NCBI GenBank assembly: GCA_013115145.1
Contig: JAAPAO010000286.1
Location: 1-40,471 of the forward strand
Direction of reading: 5' to 3'
DNA from: Perkinsus chesapeaki
Lineage: Eukaryota; Perkinsozoa; Perkinsida; Perkinsidae
DNA length: 40,471 nt
Both the position numbers and the translations under genes were made by a program. Numbering within the stretch: position 1 is the stretch's first letter; the number at the start of each line of letters is the position of its first letter. The notes below the pieces were generated by a model. The model searched no databases and was not told the DNA's origin. It worked only from the letters and a program-made list of their open reading frames with translations. Positions 2,776 through 37,994 of this stretch are shown here, piece after piece.

Positions 2776-5700
2776 CTATAGTGCCTTCAGCTGCTCCACA
2801 TCGAGGTCCATGTCCTCGGCAACCGATACCATCGTTGCTGTCATACGACCAGTCATGCCACCACCACCACCGAACTCGGGGGCCATCCTGCTCTCCGACC
2901 ACTCCACTATATTCCTAAACATAGTCGCCCACGGACTGCCCCTGATGCCCTTCCACTCCCTAGGCATCCAAGGCCACTGCCAGGTCATAGAGCAGCGCTC
3001 TGGATGAGGCATCATAGCGAGATGTCTGCCATCAGGGGTAACCAAGCCGGCGATACCGTCGATCGAACCATTGGGGTTGAAGGGGTACACCGACGTGGGG
3101 GCACCTTGGTCATCGACGTATCTCAGAGGGGCCAAATGTGAGTCCATAACCTAACAACGCGGATGCAACGGCTTAAGCCTGGAGGAACCACCTTAGTGTA
3201 AACATCTCTATCGGGGAACAAAGCCCTCCCCTCCCCATGGGCTATCCATACGCCCAAGACACTGCCGCCCATCCCTCTAAACCAGGTGCCAATTGCTGGT
3301 GAAGCCGGGTCCAACGCCACAGATACGAAACGAGACTCGTAGCGGCCGGAACGATTGTGAACAAACCTAACAAAGGTGCCAAGGGACTTCCTTTGGCTGG
3401 GACAGGAGCTTACCTTGCACGTTGAGCCAAGTCTAGCATGCCTCCCTTATCTGTCTTGCCTGGCACCCAGCCCAACAGGCTCATCAGCTGGCAACCATTA
3501 CAGACACCGAGGGAGAAGGTGTGCTGAAGCATGATACGTAGTAACACTGTGCTGTATAGTAGCAGCACTTTGCTAGTGTTACTACCTCTTCATCATAGAA
3601 CCTCTGTAGTTGATCACGGCATCTGGTATTAAAGGTGGCCTTACCAGCCCAACCCTTAGCCGAGTCCAATACATCACCGTAAGAGAACCCTCCAACAAAG
3701 GCTACTCCGGCGAAACCTGACATCCTCGACCCTTCCTCCTCGACCACAGATCCCCTGGACCTCACCTTGCAGTGTCGTCCTTCCCGTGGCGATATCGCCC
3801 ATGATGACATCTACCGGCAGAGCCCCCGCGTTCCAAAAACTCGCCGCCATCTCCCGATCGCCATTGGAGCCTTCCTCTCTAATAATCGCCACACGTACCT
3901 TCCTTTGGGTGGACGCTGGAGCCCTGGGAAGGGGGGCGAAGGTCAAACGATAGGGCGGGGTGGTGGTCCTTGAGGCCATCACATCTGAAAGAGATGGTCA
4001 TGACGACGACACGGCACGTCGTGTTAGTGCGGCGGACCTCTCTCCTGTCGAACACACGTAACATCAGCCTGGAGCTCCTCCAGCTTAAAGCTGGTCTTCT
4101 CCCACTGAAGCCTAATATCCTTCACGCTCTCCACCATCAACTGCCGTCGAGCTCCGCCTTTCATTCTCAATTCAACCTCGACATTCGTGCTGCCGCTGAC
4201 ACCGTTGCCCAACACTTTGCACTTGGTTTTCTCCCCGTAGGCAGCCATGACTGTTGGCACGTTGCTCGTGGCAACCTCCAGAATGAGCCCTGGCCCCTCA
4301 CTGAAGAGGTACTCCATAACATTCCCACTGCCGCCTTCATCTTCACGGAGATTGCCCTCATCGATCGATATAAGGTATCCATTATGGCCGCCAGACATTA
4401 TCATCTCGCATGCGGCAACAAGCAGGCCTCCGTCCGACCGATCGTGGCCAGCGGAAATTACTCCGCGGGAGATGAGGTCCTAAAATGGCAAATAGTGAGG
4501 CGCCGGAGAGCAGCTTGTCCGCACCTGGGTGACCAGGAAGGCATGCCTGAGCTGGTCCACGTGGAAATCGCTAATCCTGCCATCAGCATTCAGGTGGCCG
4601 CTCTGCAGCATCACGTGGGCAAGTGAGGTGCCCTTGAGGGAGGGACATGAGTCCAAGTCGACCAATAATAATACGGACTCCGACGGTGATAGTTTAACGT
4701 CAGGAGTGACCTTAACTGTGACATCAGGTACTGCTCCATACACCGATACGACCACTTCACCAGGGGCCTAAGATAATACAAAAAAGCTATGAAGAGCGTG
4801 TATGGTCGCACATCGAACCCCTCCGAGAGTGAATTCCCCTCTGTGTATTTTCTATCGAAACCCTGAGCCTGGGTGCAACCTCCCTGCTAGGCTCACCTTA
4901 ACAGTCTCCTTGTTGTCCTCTGGTCCATCATCCCTCCTAGGGCACTGAGCCGCCATGCTAAGGGAATCCTTACCACCATCGATAGCAATGCCAATATCAG
5001 ACATAACCTCATCGATTGCCTCCGCCACTTTCAGCATCTTGTATCCCTCTCCAGGCAGCTTGGCCGCCCACATCCAGTTGCCACTGCATCGCACATCCTC
5101 AAGATTCTCCAGCTTAACCCATACAAGATTCGTCAGAGCTTCAGCAACAGCCAGCCTGGCCATTGCTCTCAGTGAGGAATCATCTCCAGAGAGACCAATG
5201 ATCGGTCTCTCCCCAATGGCCGTTGCCGAGCCTTGGATACTGAGCATCGATGTTGCTGTTACTGCTACGTTTGCCAGTGGTGTGTGGAATGGTCCCACAC
5301 ACTGCTGTTGGGCAATGAGACCGGTGACGGAGCGATCGACCTTGTTGCAGAGGAACCTCTTGGAGCCCACTGACACTAACCGCATAACCTGAAGACATTA
5401 CTAAGGCCTCTCCACCTGGCACCTGGCCAATTGATCATTTTCATCAAGATTCAACAAGGAGACAATTAAATGCAATGTTTTATTGATAGATTCCCCAATT
5501 GGTAAGTACGGGCCGATTTCACATACATTCCCCCCCGCAGTCGGCGAGCCCTCCCAACCTACCTTCCACAGAGCCGTCTTCACATCCTCCTCGAAGTGAC
5601 CGAGTTTGTGATCGACCGACTTAGGCTTGGTAAGATGGAATGTCTTCTGTGGCATTTTACAGAGCACCTTATCAAGCGGCAGATCCACAGGTACTTTACC

Positions 5701-7743
5701 ATCTCTGTCGACCACCCTGCATCGACCAGTCTTAACAACACTACCAACCTTCGACCAGGGCGCCCCCTCCCTACGACACAGATCTCCCAGCAGCCCCAGC
5801 TTGCTCTCTGGTAGAAGTAACGCATCATTCTCCTGATACTCAGCTATCCACAGCTCCAACGCGGACATACTGGGATCACCAATCAGCATGTGTTTCATGT
5901 CAATCTCGAGGCCAGTCGGCTCCCCTATCTCCTTGAGGACGTTGCCGGCCCCACCAGCCCCTTGGTCATGGATAGACAGCACCGGGTTGGCCTCGCCCAT
6001 CTCTACTAGGTAACGGATGACCCTATTAACACGCTGGAGCATCTGAGGATCTCCTCTTTGCACCGCATTAAAGTCTAACTCTTCCTGGTTCTCCCCGGCC
6101 ACCATAGAGCTCGCTGCACCCCCACCAACCCCAAGGCGATAGGCCGGTCCACCCAACTTAACTATGGCCGCTCCTGGCATCGGCGGGGTCTGCTTCAATC
6201 TGTGCCGGCAGTCCATCGCCCCGAGGCCACCGCTCATCATTATAGGCTTCACCCACTCGATACGTTCCCCACCAACCACAGCCCCATAGCTTCGGCAAAA
6301 CCCATTCACAACAGGTTCGCCAAATTTATTACCGTAATCGCTGGCTCCATTGGAGGCTTGTATGAGGATGTCTACAGGGGCGGCCAGATTGCTCGGGTAC
6401 CGCCAAGATCGGTCCTCCCAGTCGACTTCATGCTCCTCATCTTCGAGATAGAGCGCTCCCACACAGTAAGCCGCAGTGCCCGCCACCACCAGGCTGCCTC
6501 GACCTGTACTTTGGCCATCTCTCAGTCGCCCACCAGTGCCAGTTTCAGCGCCAGGGAACGGGGCCACTCCACAAGGGAAGTTGTGGGTTTCGCATGTGAA
6601 GGTTATATCATATATAAGGGAGCTCTCGGCAAAGTCGCCAGTACTCATGTCAGGCAGCAGGCCAGTGAAGCCTCCAGCAGCTCCCCGGATGGCGGAACTG
6701 TTATCACTGAAGGCCACTGTGGAAGCGTTCGGACGACCGCCTTCCTTCTCCCTCTGCTGAACTCTTTTGTATGGGCTCTTAACGAGCTGGAAAAGTGTAT
6801 GGGGCACCTCCTCCCCGTCAACGACCAATTTACCACCGAAAAACCAATGTCGTGAGTGCTCACTGTTACCCTGGGCTAGATCGAAACATTCAACCTAATA
6901 GAGACGAGTAGGCCAGGGCGGCCACCTTCCGTGCTTACCGTGGTGGGATTGCGTTTAAGGTCGTCCCTGAACAACTTGACATAATAATCGATGTCCTGAG
7001 AATCGTACCCGAGACCATTGGATTCTGATAAAGCCACCATGAAGGCTAATTCCACTGGCCTCCCCTACCGCTGAAGCTTTCCAAAGCCTTCTGGCCCTCT
7101 CCCATCACGTCCACTTCTCCCCATGGGGCCGGCTTGGCCGCTTCTGCATACAGGAAGCCTCCAGATGCAACAGGATACTCCATCTCAGTCATACGGTCAT
7201 GGATCTAAGTGGGGTAATTCCAGTCCGGGAAAGAGACTGGCATCACCACCTGGGATAGAAAAGTGGCGCGTTGCTCGGTCGAGGATGGGCGCTTGATGAG
7301 ATACCTCCTGGTTCCTGAAGTGAGGGCCGTAAAGGAGAGTGCAGTTCTAATCGAGCTTACTCTCAATCCTTTCAATGCTGGAGATGCCAGCAGACAAGCA
7401 AATACTGACAGCGTTGGTGCACCAGGCGGTAACAAATTGCTGCCTTGGCCCGACTTCAACCACCTCTGTCGAACCGTCCTTAGCTTCGGTTAAAGAAGTC
7501 TCTTTGGTAGCAACACTTCCCAAACACGGGAATGTCTCTTGGAGGAGCCACAGGAGGCGGTTTTCCTCTTCAACAGTAAGGACAGTACCGGTGACCTGCT
7601 ATGGCAATGCAGAGGTTAACTTCGCCTTCATCAGCTACTTGAACGTTGAAGCATATTTCTTGTTCGATAACAACAACGTCCGAGTTTCTTAAACTCCTTG
7701 GCTCGACTCTGCGATAGAAACGAAGTGGCGAGGATGTGTTCAT
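2776..7743 (-). CDS. PFAS: Phosphoribosylformylglycinamidine (FGAM) synthase, 14 exons, 1381 aa
   Basis: It catalyses the fourth step of de novo purine synthesis: FGAR + ATP + glutamine to FGAM, in the cytosol. Exons (minus): 7743-7639, 7595-7361, 7314-7250, 7204-7069, 7024-6939, 6894-5563, 5388-4897, 4767-4525, 4479-4038, 3984-3766, 3716-3586, 3523-3414, 3366-3192, 3150-2776. They sum to 4146 bases, exactly 1382 codons. Order: N-terminal PurS-like part, linker, synthetase halves (NSEHSRHWFF, CETHNFPCGVAPFPGAETGT, GVGGGAASS, NVAVTATS, AVAEALTNLV, HDRSDGG), then a C-terminal class-I glutaminase. Nucleophile Cys1170 lies in LGVCNGCQL; His1306 and Glu1308 lie in MMPHPER. The domain set is the large single-chain type, closest to animal and plant proteins. 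A Gly-rich tail of roughly 35 residues extends beyond the usual C-terminus. Introns run from 41 to 174 bases. The start is the first ATG before FYRRVEP and follows a non-coding stretch. Function is secure. Confidence 0.97.
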
Positions 7744-8004
7744 CCCAGCTAACGGGTAAAACAAGGAGGTAAAACCCTAAGTACACAGGAGTGCAAGCAT
7801 GTCCCAACCGCCTCCCCAATACAACAGATCGCTGGTAACCAATGTGAATCTATTTCTAGCAGCCGCCACAGTTATTACAACTATAACTGAGTTATATGCC
7901 CGCAAATAAAGCCCTAATGCCGTGAAACTGTGTTGAAACGCAAAGTGCGCATACTGAGCACATGCACCAACCGGGGAGCCACGAAGAAAGTTTGCTCTCT
8001 ACAA

Positions 8005-8076
8005 GCCGGTTTAGCTTAGTGGTAGAGCGTCAGTCTTGTAAACTGAAGGTCGGCGGTTCGATCCCGCCATCCGGCT
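8005..8076 (+). tRNA. tRNA-Thr (anticodon TGT)
   Basis: Cloverleaf: acceptor GCCGGTT/ATCCGGC with one T-T mismatch, D arm GCTT...GAGC, anticodon stem TCAGT/ACTGA with loop CTTGTAA, T arm GGCGGTTCGATCCCGCC, discriminator T. No intron. A TTTT run at 8078-8081 serves as the RNA polymerase III stop. Lies 260 bases upstream of FGAM synthase, on the opposite strand. Confidence 0.95.
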
Positions 8077-8253
8077 ATTTTGTAGACGAGTTTGCCTTCC
8101 TTGTGAATGTACGAGCAAATTTCTGAGGCCATAGCCTCCCTTGAAGCACCTCCTAGGTAAAAGAGAGACTGGAGTTGTCTATTGAAACCAAACTAACAAG
8201 CAATCACAGAGCTTCCGATCTGAACACGAGAACGGCTCAGCTAAAATATCACA

Positions 8254-8327
8254 GCTCCGGTGGCTCAATCGGATAGAGCGTTGGACTTCTAATCCAAAGG
8301 TTGCGGGTTCAAGTCCCGCCCGGAGTA
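8254..8327 (+). tRNA. tRNA-Arg (anticodon TCT)
   Basis: Acceptor GCTCCGG/CCGGAGT (first pair G-T), anticodon stem TTGGA/TCCAA around loop CTTCTAA, T arm GCGGGTTCAAGTCCCGC, discriminator A. Intronless, same strand as tRNA-Thr and 177 bases downstream of it, with its own internal promoter boxes. Confidence 0.95.
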
Positions 8328-10689: not shown

Positions 10690-10771
10690 CGACACCTGAG
10701 GGATTCGAACCCTCGCGGGCAGAGCCCAACGGCTTAGCAGGCCGCCGCCTTAACCACTCGGCCAAAGTGTC
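10690..10771 (-). tRNA. tRNA-Ser (anticodon GCT)
   Basis: Minus strand, class II tRNA with a long variable arm. Acceptor GACACTT/AGGTGTC, D arm GGCCGAGTGGTTAAGGC, anticodon loop CTGCTAA, T arm GAGGGTTCGAATCCCTC, discriminator G. It sits 94 bases upstream of the protease start and is read in the same direction. Confidence 0.95.
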
Positions 10772-36231: not shown

Positions 36232-37994
36232 ATGATATCGAGCCTTGGTCAACCCGGTGATGGTCTTGAAGGCCGTCGCTGTGTTCCTACAAGGGAGGGT
36301 ATCACCAATGAGCAACATATTGTAGCTTTCGCTGCCGAGGTAATGAAACCTCTAGGCGACTTTGACTTGAAGGCATTCTAGGATTTACCCAAGCCAAAAC
36401 CGTCAGAGCAGGTCCAGGTGGCATTTGCGAGCTGGGAGATGCCGCACCTGAAGTGATAAGCGCTCTCGATGAGCGATGCTAGAGAGAGGTGTTGTTAAGA
36501 TACCAGTTTGAGAATCCTGGCACTGATCGCTCAACGCGACTGAATATACTAGTTCACTTGGACCAGAGACTGTCCGACCCCATAGCTGCAAATGAAGCTG
36601 TACTATAAGGTATAGCAGCTTGGCGGTGGTTAGGGGGCTTTGTGTAGATAGAATGCGGCGTGTTGGACATGCTCGTTGCTTTCCTGGACGACATAGACCA
36701 ATCAAGAGTTACTCCTGATGGGGATGTTGACACACATTACAGGCTACTCGCATTGAAGGTATGCCATTGCTCTCAGTTTCTAGGATAGCCTTCTGACCAG
36801 GTCGTGTATCGGTTATCGAGATCTACTGTTGGTCGAGCTGCACTCGCTCATAATGGGAATGCACTACAAGCTTTGAAAAGAGAGGAGACTCTGCTTAGCC
36901 CAAGATGCTGGTGAGTTATGGATGTAAAGGCTTGGGACGGGTTATTGCAAGGTTAACAAGGCGCACGACGACGCTGGTCCTACTTGAGCTCTCCGGCTTC
37001 GCTGAGGGAGCGGCCAGGCTGTTCGATACCGGGTAATGTAATATGGGGTAAGGTTCCGTATCTATGGTAAGATACTTGGAAGTCCTGTATAGTAGAGTCT
37101 GTGTCCGAAGAAGCTCCCAAGGCCCAGTGGAGGGGAGGAGTGAGGGTAACTAAAGCTTTGCTAGGTAATAGAGCTAGCGTGGCTTCTTCAGTGCGTTGTG
37201 ATGTATTTGAAGTTCTCTCCAACATGGTGTCTCTTGGTCCAAGTGATGCTGGTAAAGTTGCTGCATCAGTAAGGACTCCATGATGACCGTGGGTTCGAAC
37301 CCCACCCCCGGCATTTTCAGTTTGCTGGCCTCCCTATGCTGATACCGGCATCTCCGACTAACTCCACTGTGTCATCAATTCTCCGCTTCCTCCTAGAAGT
37401 CAGCCTCGTTGGAGTGGATGCCAAGAAGGCTGTGTCGGCCGACTCGTCATTTGTACTAGAACTGGGGTGGAGGAGGGCCGGCACTAGTCTTTAATGTAGA
37501 CGAACAAGATAGTACTTCTCTTCATGAGTGTGGACGCTCCACCGAGCGTTGTTGATGTGGGATGGTCACTGGCAGCTAGTTTAACAGTACTAGTCGATGT
37601 TAAGACGGAGGTAATAGAGGTACCAGTAGCTAACATGATGCCAATTGAAGGTCTGGGATGCATGCCCGGACTTGCTGGATCATGTTATCGAGAGGCTGAC
37701 GGTCAACAGGCCGTCTCAGGGGGCAGTGTTGAGGCATGTTATTCAAGTTCTAGCAAATCTTCAAGAGCTTCCTACGTAGGAGTCGCTTTGCCTGCACAAC
37801 TGCTACTGTGCTCTGGTTAGCATTCGGGAATGGTTCCTGAGTCATGGCGCTGCTGAGGTACTGGATGCTATTGCTGAGGAGGATGGTCAAGATGCTACGG
37901 TAATCCAGGCGGAGAACTGATGGAGACGACTTGAAGGATTTAGGTTGTTAAGTTGGGAAAGACATCCGCGGAGCTACTCCGATTTAAGCCTTGA
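36232..37994 (+). CDS. Armadillo-repeat protein, 12 exons, about 398 aa
   Basis: Exons 36232-36339, 36382-36417 (or -36411), 36483-36599, 36648-36758, 36801-36910, 36952-37032, 37133-37268, 37321-37452, 37500-37610, 37651-37775, 37821-37899, 37944-37994 sum to 1197 bases, divisible by three. Helical repeats rich in Leu/Ala: LNILVHLDQRLSDPIAANEA, ECGVLDMLVAFLDDID, GRAALAHNGNALQALKREET, TLVLLELSGFAEGAARLFD, VRVTKALLGN, SILRFLLEVSLVGVDAKKAV, VLRHVIQVLANLQELP, SHGAAEVLDAIAEEDGQDA. 'L-x2-L ... N/A ... G-x-L-x-x-L' is the armadillo three-helix pattern. The N-terminus (SSLGQPGDG...TNEQHIVAFAAE) precedes the repeats. Of the named families ARMC6 seems nearest, but this is a weak guess. ARM solenoids bind partner proteins. 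Intron 7 (37269-37320) is tRNA-derived. Confidence 0.85.
37281..37317 (+). other. 3' half of a tRNA gene lying inside an intron
   Basis: A perfect T arm GTGGGTTCGAACCCCAC (37289-37305) is followed by the 3' acceptor strand and discriminator CCCCGGCA (37306-37313) and TTTT (37314-37317). Preceding bases (37281-37288) resemble the base of a variable arm. The matching 5' acceptor GCCGGGG and the D and anticodon arms are absent; that position is coding exon. It occupies most of the 52-base intron 37269-37320 (donor GTAAGG, acceptor TTTTCAG). Confidence 0.85.

Follow-up and report, generated by a model that had tools for sequence, protein, structure and literature searches.

A putative 52-nt intron of Perkinsus chesapeaki may belong to a genome-wide introner-like family resembling the 3' end of a tRNA gene

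How does a sequence resembling the 3' end of a tRNA gene come to lie inside a putative spliceosomal intron? The question is raised by positions 37269-37320 of the window, i.e. the 40,471-nt stretch of Perkinsus chesapeaki contig JAAPAO010000286.1 analysed here. The original prediction described these 52 nt as an intron between two armadillo exons, built from the 3' half of a tRNA gene, and suggested its birth, or complete replacement, by insertion of a tRNA fragment. Re-reading of the sequence bears out the coordinates and the letters of each part (GTAAGG donor, T arm, CCCCGGC, A37313, TTTT, and TTTTCAG acceptor), and the pol III-like T run indeed stands directly before CAG, where it would supply the 3' splice-site tract. 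The segment, its flanks, and the other genes of the window are composed as follows.

37269..37320, forward strand: putative 52-nt GT-AG spliceosomal intron, sense-orientation member of a tRNA-3'-end-like family (letters, intron fit, one of 17 strict genome matches, frame)
37269..37274, forward strand: 5' splice site GTAAGG (letters)
37285..37288, forward strand: V-loop-like tetranucleotide GACC (letters, family profile)
37289..37305, forward strand: T arm GTGGG-TTCGAAC-CCCAC, containing box B (letters)
37306..37312, forward strand: CCCCGGC, like a 3' acceptor strand (letters)
37313, forward strand: discriminator-like A (letters)
37314..37320, forward strand: 3' splice site, TTTT (pol III terminator-like) followed by CAG (letters)
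37071..37268, forward strand: upstream open frame of 198 nt ending in ...DAGKVAAS, no recognised protein family (frame, Pfam, homology search)
37321..37491, forward strand: downstream open frame of 171 nt starting with FAGLPMLIP... (frame); its end may fall in a further intron (by eye)
~4024-7580, reverse strand: PurL-type phosphoribosylformylglycinamidine synthase gene; two of its introns measure 44 and 45 nt (by eye), and identity to the nearest protein is 91% (source 'lgn')
8004-8077: tRNA-Thr(TGT), ordinary gene (ARAGORN, Rfam)
8254-8327: tRNA-Arg(TCT), ordinary gene (ARAGORN, Rfam)
10690-10771: tRNA-Ser(GCT), ordinary gene (ARAGORN, Rfam)

Judged from its sequence, the segment is most probably a genuine short GT-AG intron, with a tRNA-3'-end-like module as its body and a T run that doubles as the 3' splice-site tract. 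It contains an in-frame stop, and its 52 nt are not a multiple of three. Excision leaves frames open for 198 nt on the left and 171 nt on the right; when 52 nt are removed at random places in the window, 2.5% of the cases match this, giving the frame test modest strength. In coding scores trained on a small set of 17 ORFs, the left exon reaches 22.7 in the joined frame versus -44.8 and -45.2 in the other two, while the right exon is weakly coding (-6.9, the best of its three frames). The armadillo assignment was not supported: a 160-aa query that included a further guessed exon returned no Pfam family at E ≤ 10, and none of 161 candidates in the homologue search with the same query reached E ≤ 10. 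No homologue of the flanks supporting the splice was found in this search; neither a plasmid BLAST nor a look for another copy of the gene at the DNA level was productive.

Such flanks, one of them weakly coding and both devoid of a homologue or Pfam family in these searches, would also suit unspliced DNA, namely a non-coding stretch with a box-B element, or a pseudogene. This reading is at odds with the strong splice sites, the coding-like left exon, the rarity of equally open frames among random excisions, and the placement of other family members in conserved domains (see below), and we regard it as quite unlikely.

The tRNA likeness of the segment is confined to its 3' part. Its T arm is identical to that of tRNA-Leu(AAG) in the same genome, and its acceptor strand differs from that tRNA. 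Neither ARAGORN nor Rfam at the gathering threshold calls a tRNA at 37269-37320, and a permissive Rfam alignment to the tRNA model (37248-37313) scores 13.2 bits (E 4.2) against a cut-off of 29; the covariance search proposed earlier therefore finds no cloverleaf overlapping the intron. That no 5' half lies nearby also proved correct, as GCCGGGG was not found within 1 kb on either side (forward strand), leaving the segment with no acceptor partner there. The 23-nt core occurs as an exact match once in the genome and has 17 relatives at 2-3 mismatches.

A genome-wide search (35.4 Mb, 884 contigs) places these relatives in a much larger set. The box-B string GGTTCGAANCC gives 728 hits, real tRNAs included, versus 57 for the reversed pattern that served as control; for the 3'-end module GGTTCGAANCCCANNNNCGNCA, one mismatch being allowed, the counts are 187 versus 1; and the strict sense-intron pattern GTAAG..GGTTCGANNCC..TTTTNAG gives 17 versus 0, with lengths of 38-52 nt, the window intron being the longest. 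All of these are strand hits, in which a palindromic site can count twice. Among the 212 box-B sites of the sequence analysed, 24 overlap tRNA genes called by ARAGORN and were set aside; the other 188 correspond to 141 non-tRNA elements, the near-palindromic box B having caused double readings. These 141 copies are a non-random sample, taken as the best matches or the first places in contig order and oriented by a score drawing on part of the consensus. All of them carry the searched box B, so that its conservation among them follows from the search. Outside the searched string, they have in common a V-loop-like GG.C, YR before GG, G at +13, GGYA, and the T run. TTTT follows within an 11-nt span in 45 of the 141, versus an upstream background of 3%. 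At the V-loop-like tetranucleotide the family tends toward GGTC, and about nine in ten copies have C at tRNA position 48. In the first profile, whose 112 rows included some real tRNAs as well as double readings, nothing outside -15..+25 reached 0.15 bits. The window element is most likely a member of this dispersed family rather than a lone tRNA fragment, and as a family member it stands beyond chance.

Within the family, box B itself is more constant than its surroundings. When the loop was left open in the search, 125 hits were obtained versus 10 in the control, and 84 of the 100 listed loops were still TTCGA or TTCAA, real tRNAs included; box B therefore seems constrained or freshly copied. 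The best 45 PWM hits from 260 kb of window plus flanks, a list that includes duplicates and the window's three tRNAs and comes from a PWM that itself weights box B, had TTCGA or TTCAA in all but one case, and the continuum of a decaying repeat was not seen among them. Across the copies, CG, CA, and TG predominate at positions 50-51 and 63-64, an alternation suggestive of CpG decay, CA at 63-64 having been prescribed in the search for part of the set. TTCGAA, by comparison, retains its internal CpG, which the search had asked for; with the loop left open, most loops were still TTCGA or TTCAA.

What is kept of the tRNA in these copies is sequence, not pairing. A perfect T stem occurs in 4 of the 141 (6.5 expected by shuffling), the window element being one of the four, and a T stem with GU allowed in 9 (12.2 shuffled), whereas it is paired in 18 of 18 real tRNA hits. 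Thus the perfect GTGGG/CCCAC stem, which is present as originally described and was its most striking feature, lies at chance level within the family. Among 59 copies from the GGTTCGAANCC search, 51-63 is paired in 28 (27.0 expected), 50-64 in 27 (28.1), and 49-65 in 22 (24.0); the outer pairs do not covary, and the T stem is not maintained in the family. A complement of the acceptor strand within 150 nt was found upstream in 2 of 141 copies (1.3 expected) and downstream in 1 (1.1 expected). Of three box A patterns sought upstream of the copies, two were near background and the third reached 8.5% versus 4.3%, with none clear.

Several structural readings were discarded on these grounds. A permuted or intron-bearing tRNA gene lacks an acceptor partner beyond chance within 150 nt up- or downstream and has an unpaired T stem. 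RNA structure as the conserved property finds neither stem-like covariation nor an excess of folding: the window segment folds no better than its shuffles (z -0.18), and six others range from -1.50 to 1.63. Recurrent peptide readings of the KVVGSNP... type are explained by the DNA consensus rather than by a protein motif.

The view that the segment is a singular fragment of one parent tRNA with acceptor GCCGGGG, inserted in a single birth event, fares poorly here. It accounts for a perfect T arm identical to that of tRNA-Leu(AAG), and not for hundreds of related copies in which perfect stems occur at chance level, for an acceptor strand unlike that tRNA and without a partner nearby, and for an exact core found only once. 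We consider it highly improbable.

Do other copies lie in introns as well? For each copy the best enclosing GT-AG pair of 36-62 nt, a range that could hide longer introns, was scored with splice-site weights of our own setting and compared with 4000 random points from the same loci. In the sense orientation 10 of 141 copies score at least 5 versus 0.8 by the null, and in antisense 13 score at least 4 versus 2.3, two of these (L110, L096) reading better as sense. At a score of at least 3.5 in either orientation, 30 copies fit well into a putative GT-AG intron of 40-57 nt, versus 7.2 expected. They were labelled 15 sense and 15 antisense; three of the latter (L110, L112, L096) read better as sense, giving 18 and 12 after the orientation check. 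A good intron is absent at 85 of the 141 copies, and dicodon classification left the flanks of 131 unclassified. Once spliced, 93% of the 30 keep both flanking frames open for at least 20 codons, versus 48% of 1500 random points.

Further support comes from protein domains that cross the junctions. Ten recognisable-looking spliced peptides were picked by eye from 49 candidates scoring at least 2.5; five gave a junction-crossing Pfam hit at E < 1e-3, and four passed the Pfam cut-off. The latter are IF4E (1.3e-22; L151, sense), HATPase_c, a histidine-kinase ATPase domain (2.4e-14; L036, sense), dynein AAA_8 (9.8e-33; L054, antisense), and Trehalase (9e-14; L126, antisense, with an intron score of 3.1 and hence outside the 30). 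A DEAD helicase hit (7.6e-5; L043, antisense) is weaker and below the cut-off, as is TPR_2 (0.0014; L123), and no Pfam family was found for the other four peptides. The domain-supported introns are 46-54 nt long. At the dynein junction, 120 of the 120 listed homologues (of 488) are ungapped, in a search where the spliced-protein query favours such hits and some sources may be transcripts. Some family members thus appear, from their sequences, to form whole GT-AG introns in either orientation.

Copies without a good intron score carry the same module outside the searched string, so that the module is not simply a splicing motif. This feeds the main rival explanation, in which the copies are host-functional TFIIIC/box-B sites kept by selection locus by locus, some of them happening to sit in short introns. 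Yeast 'extra TFIIIC' (ETC) sites likewise have a box B without a tRNA; they are not known to form introns, and intron formation sets the present family apart from them. Selection on host sites would agree with the persistence of TTCGA/TTCAA under the open-loop search and with the lack of target-site duplications (TSDs; see below). It leaves unexplained the GGYA and T-run parts, as well as the module spanning introns from one splice site to the other, above chance and whichever way it is oriented, and remains in our estimate unlikely.

Further, SINE-like copies may have inserted into pre-existing introns that later shrank to about 45 nt. Short introns seem normal here, given the two ordinary introns seen by eye in the PurL gene, where others look longer. 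Shrinkage is harder to reconcile with a module that takes up almost the whole intron: a 44-nt intron that had received a copy would be expected to measure about 80 nt, as opposed to the 46-54 nt of the domain-supported cases. We take this course of events to be distinctly improbable.

We instead favour, as moderately probable, the reading of 37269-37320 as a canonical ultra-short intron of a genome-wide introner-like family built on a tRNA- or SINE-type 3' end. The family unit would comprise about 35-50 bp (V-loop-like AGGTC, box B, CCNRG, GGYA, T run), resembling the 3' terminus of a tRNA gene or of a tRNA-type SINE, and a copy landing in an exon could be removed in its entirety by splicing, whichever way it faces. 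For sense copies the splice sites would be GTAAG at the 5' edge and the T run plus YAG. Since 8 of the 17 strict sense introns have the start of GTAAG at exactly 17 nt upstream of GG, both sites seem to be carried by the element in a sense subfamily. In antisense, the complement of the T-run region would provide a purine-rich 5' splice site (such as GTAAGA, GTGAGA, or GTAAAA) and the other edge the AG, which varies in position and is therefore probably recruited.

The introns would have arisen by insertion of mobile copies, and copies without an intron fit would lie outside exons. Birth by insertion, as first proposed for the single locus, is plausible for the family as an introner- or SINE-like element and disfavoured as a one-off event. 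Box B may persist because pol III/TFIIIC is required for copying and the copies turn over fast; this would explain constant boxes in otherwise diverged copies, as would selection on TFIIIC sites. The mobility signature of introners, TSDs or near-identical copies, was not found: among 127 copies, TSDs of at least 6 nt are no more frequent than by chance (the longest match was exactly 5 nt in 43, 34.8 expected), and similar pairs are rare (one at 44/47, one at 39/47, the rest at ≤ 36/47).

A more specific origin would be from 3' tRNA halves cut in the anticodon loop, in which GT at 35-36 plus A37 and A38 acted as 5' splice site and the 3' tract came from the pol III terminator. The tRNA likeness would then run from about position 33-38 to the terminator, and the half would bring both splice sites. 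A hint in this direction is that the GTAAG of the 8 strict cases falls at tRNA position 35. Moreover, in 30 class-I-like copies outside sense introns, a subset chosen post hoc, T33 occurs in 17, A37 in 15, and A38 in 14 (uncorrected p 2e-4, 0.008, and 0.02). Over the full 106 copies of this kind, enrichment is absent for T33 (30, p 0.23), marginal for A37 (p 0.06), and modest for A38 (p 0.003). A base-paired anticodon stem was sought and not found in the copies, which speaks against an origin from tRNA halves; we rate it as tentative and rather unlikely.

How does the family compare with known systems? tRNA-derived SINEs carry a box B and a tRNA-like stretch; the present elements share the box B, and their likeness is limited to the 3' half, with no clear box A or 5' half, a length of about 40 bp, and occurrence in many introns in both orientations. 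A p-SINE1-like intron in rice CatA is, by its title, reportedly a single SINE-like intron on record. With introners, as described in the available part of a published survey, the family shares dispersed short repeats that act as whole introns with splice sites partly carried by the element (PMC9860276, Gozashti et al, 2022). Many introns at different loci share sequence, the shared part being the module and overall similarity low, and element edges coincide with splice sites, the antisense AG edge being variable. Introner families are defined by intron-intron similarity, whereas here the copies share mainly the tRNA-like box-B/3'-end module and no TSD is seen (PMC9860276, the part available). 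The same portion of the survey reports median family lengths of 30-654 nt, TSDs in 49 of 130 and terminal inverted repeats (TIRs) in 72 of 177 testable families, and some families with neither; the words 'tRNA' and 'SINE' do not occur in its main text. Introner elements of Amoebophrya are also repeated introns in a marine protist, but mostly non-canonical and with inverted and direct repeats, according to the accessible sections, whereas GT-AG introns with edge direct repeats at chance are found here (PMC7789003). Fungal introner-like elements (ILEs) are likewise on record (PMC4457414, in excerpt). Our literature search, situated mostly outside subscription papers and including portions of PMC9860276, PMC7789003, PMC12768974, PMC3443670, and PMC3151243, yielded no tRNA- or SINE-derived introner family.

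The origin of new introns is an open question, for which the introner survey, in the part available, points to DNA transposons (PMC9860276). If the reading favoured here is true, a tRNA/pol III-type element making introns both ways would be a different intron source. Ready-made splice sites would thereby be explained, the T run acting as 3' splice-site tract one way and as purine-rich 5' splice site the other.

Some individual loci deserve mention. L060 (minus strand) holds a longer tRNA-like sequence with an A-box-like CCAGTGGTTAG before box B that is not called by ARAGORN, possibly a SINE or tRNA pseudogene. In L137 and L157, the pair identical at 44/47, the likeness extends beyond the element, and the two may belong to a longer dispersed repeat. 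Scanned with a similar pattern, viral contigs yielded 28 stretches, each with one match. Three same-strand elements lie within about 720 bp at L083:1501-2240 (contig C18), and L030, L039, and L037 hold two or more each; the elements may be clustered in the genome.
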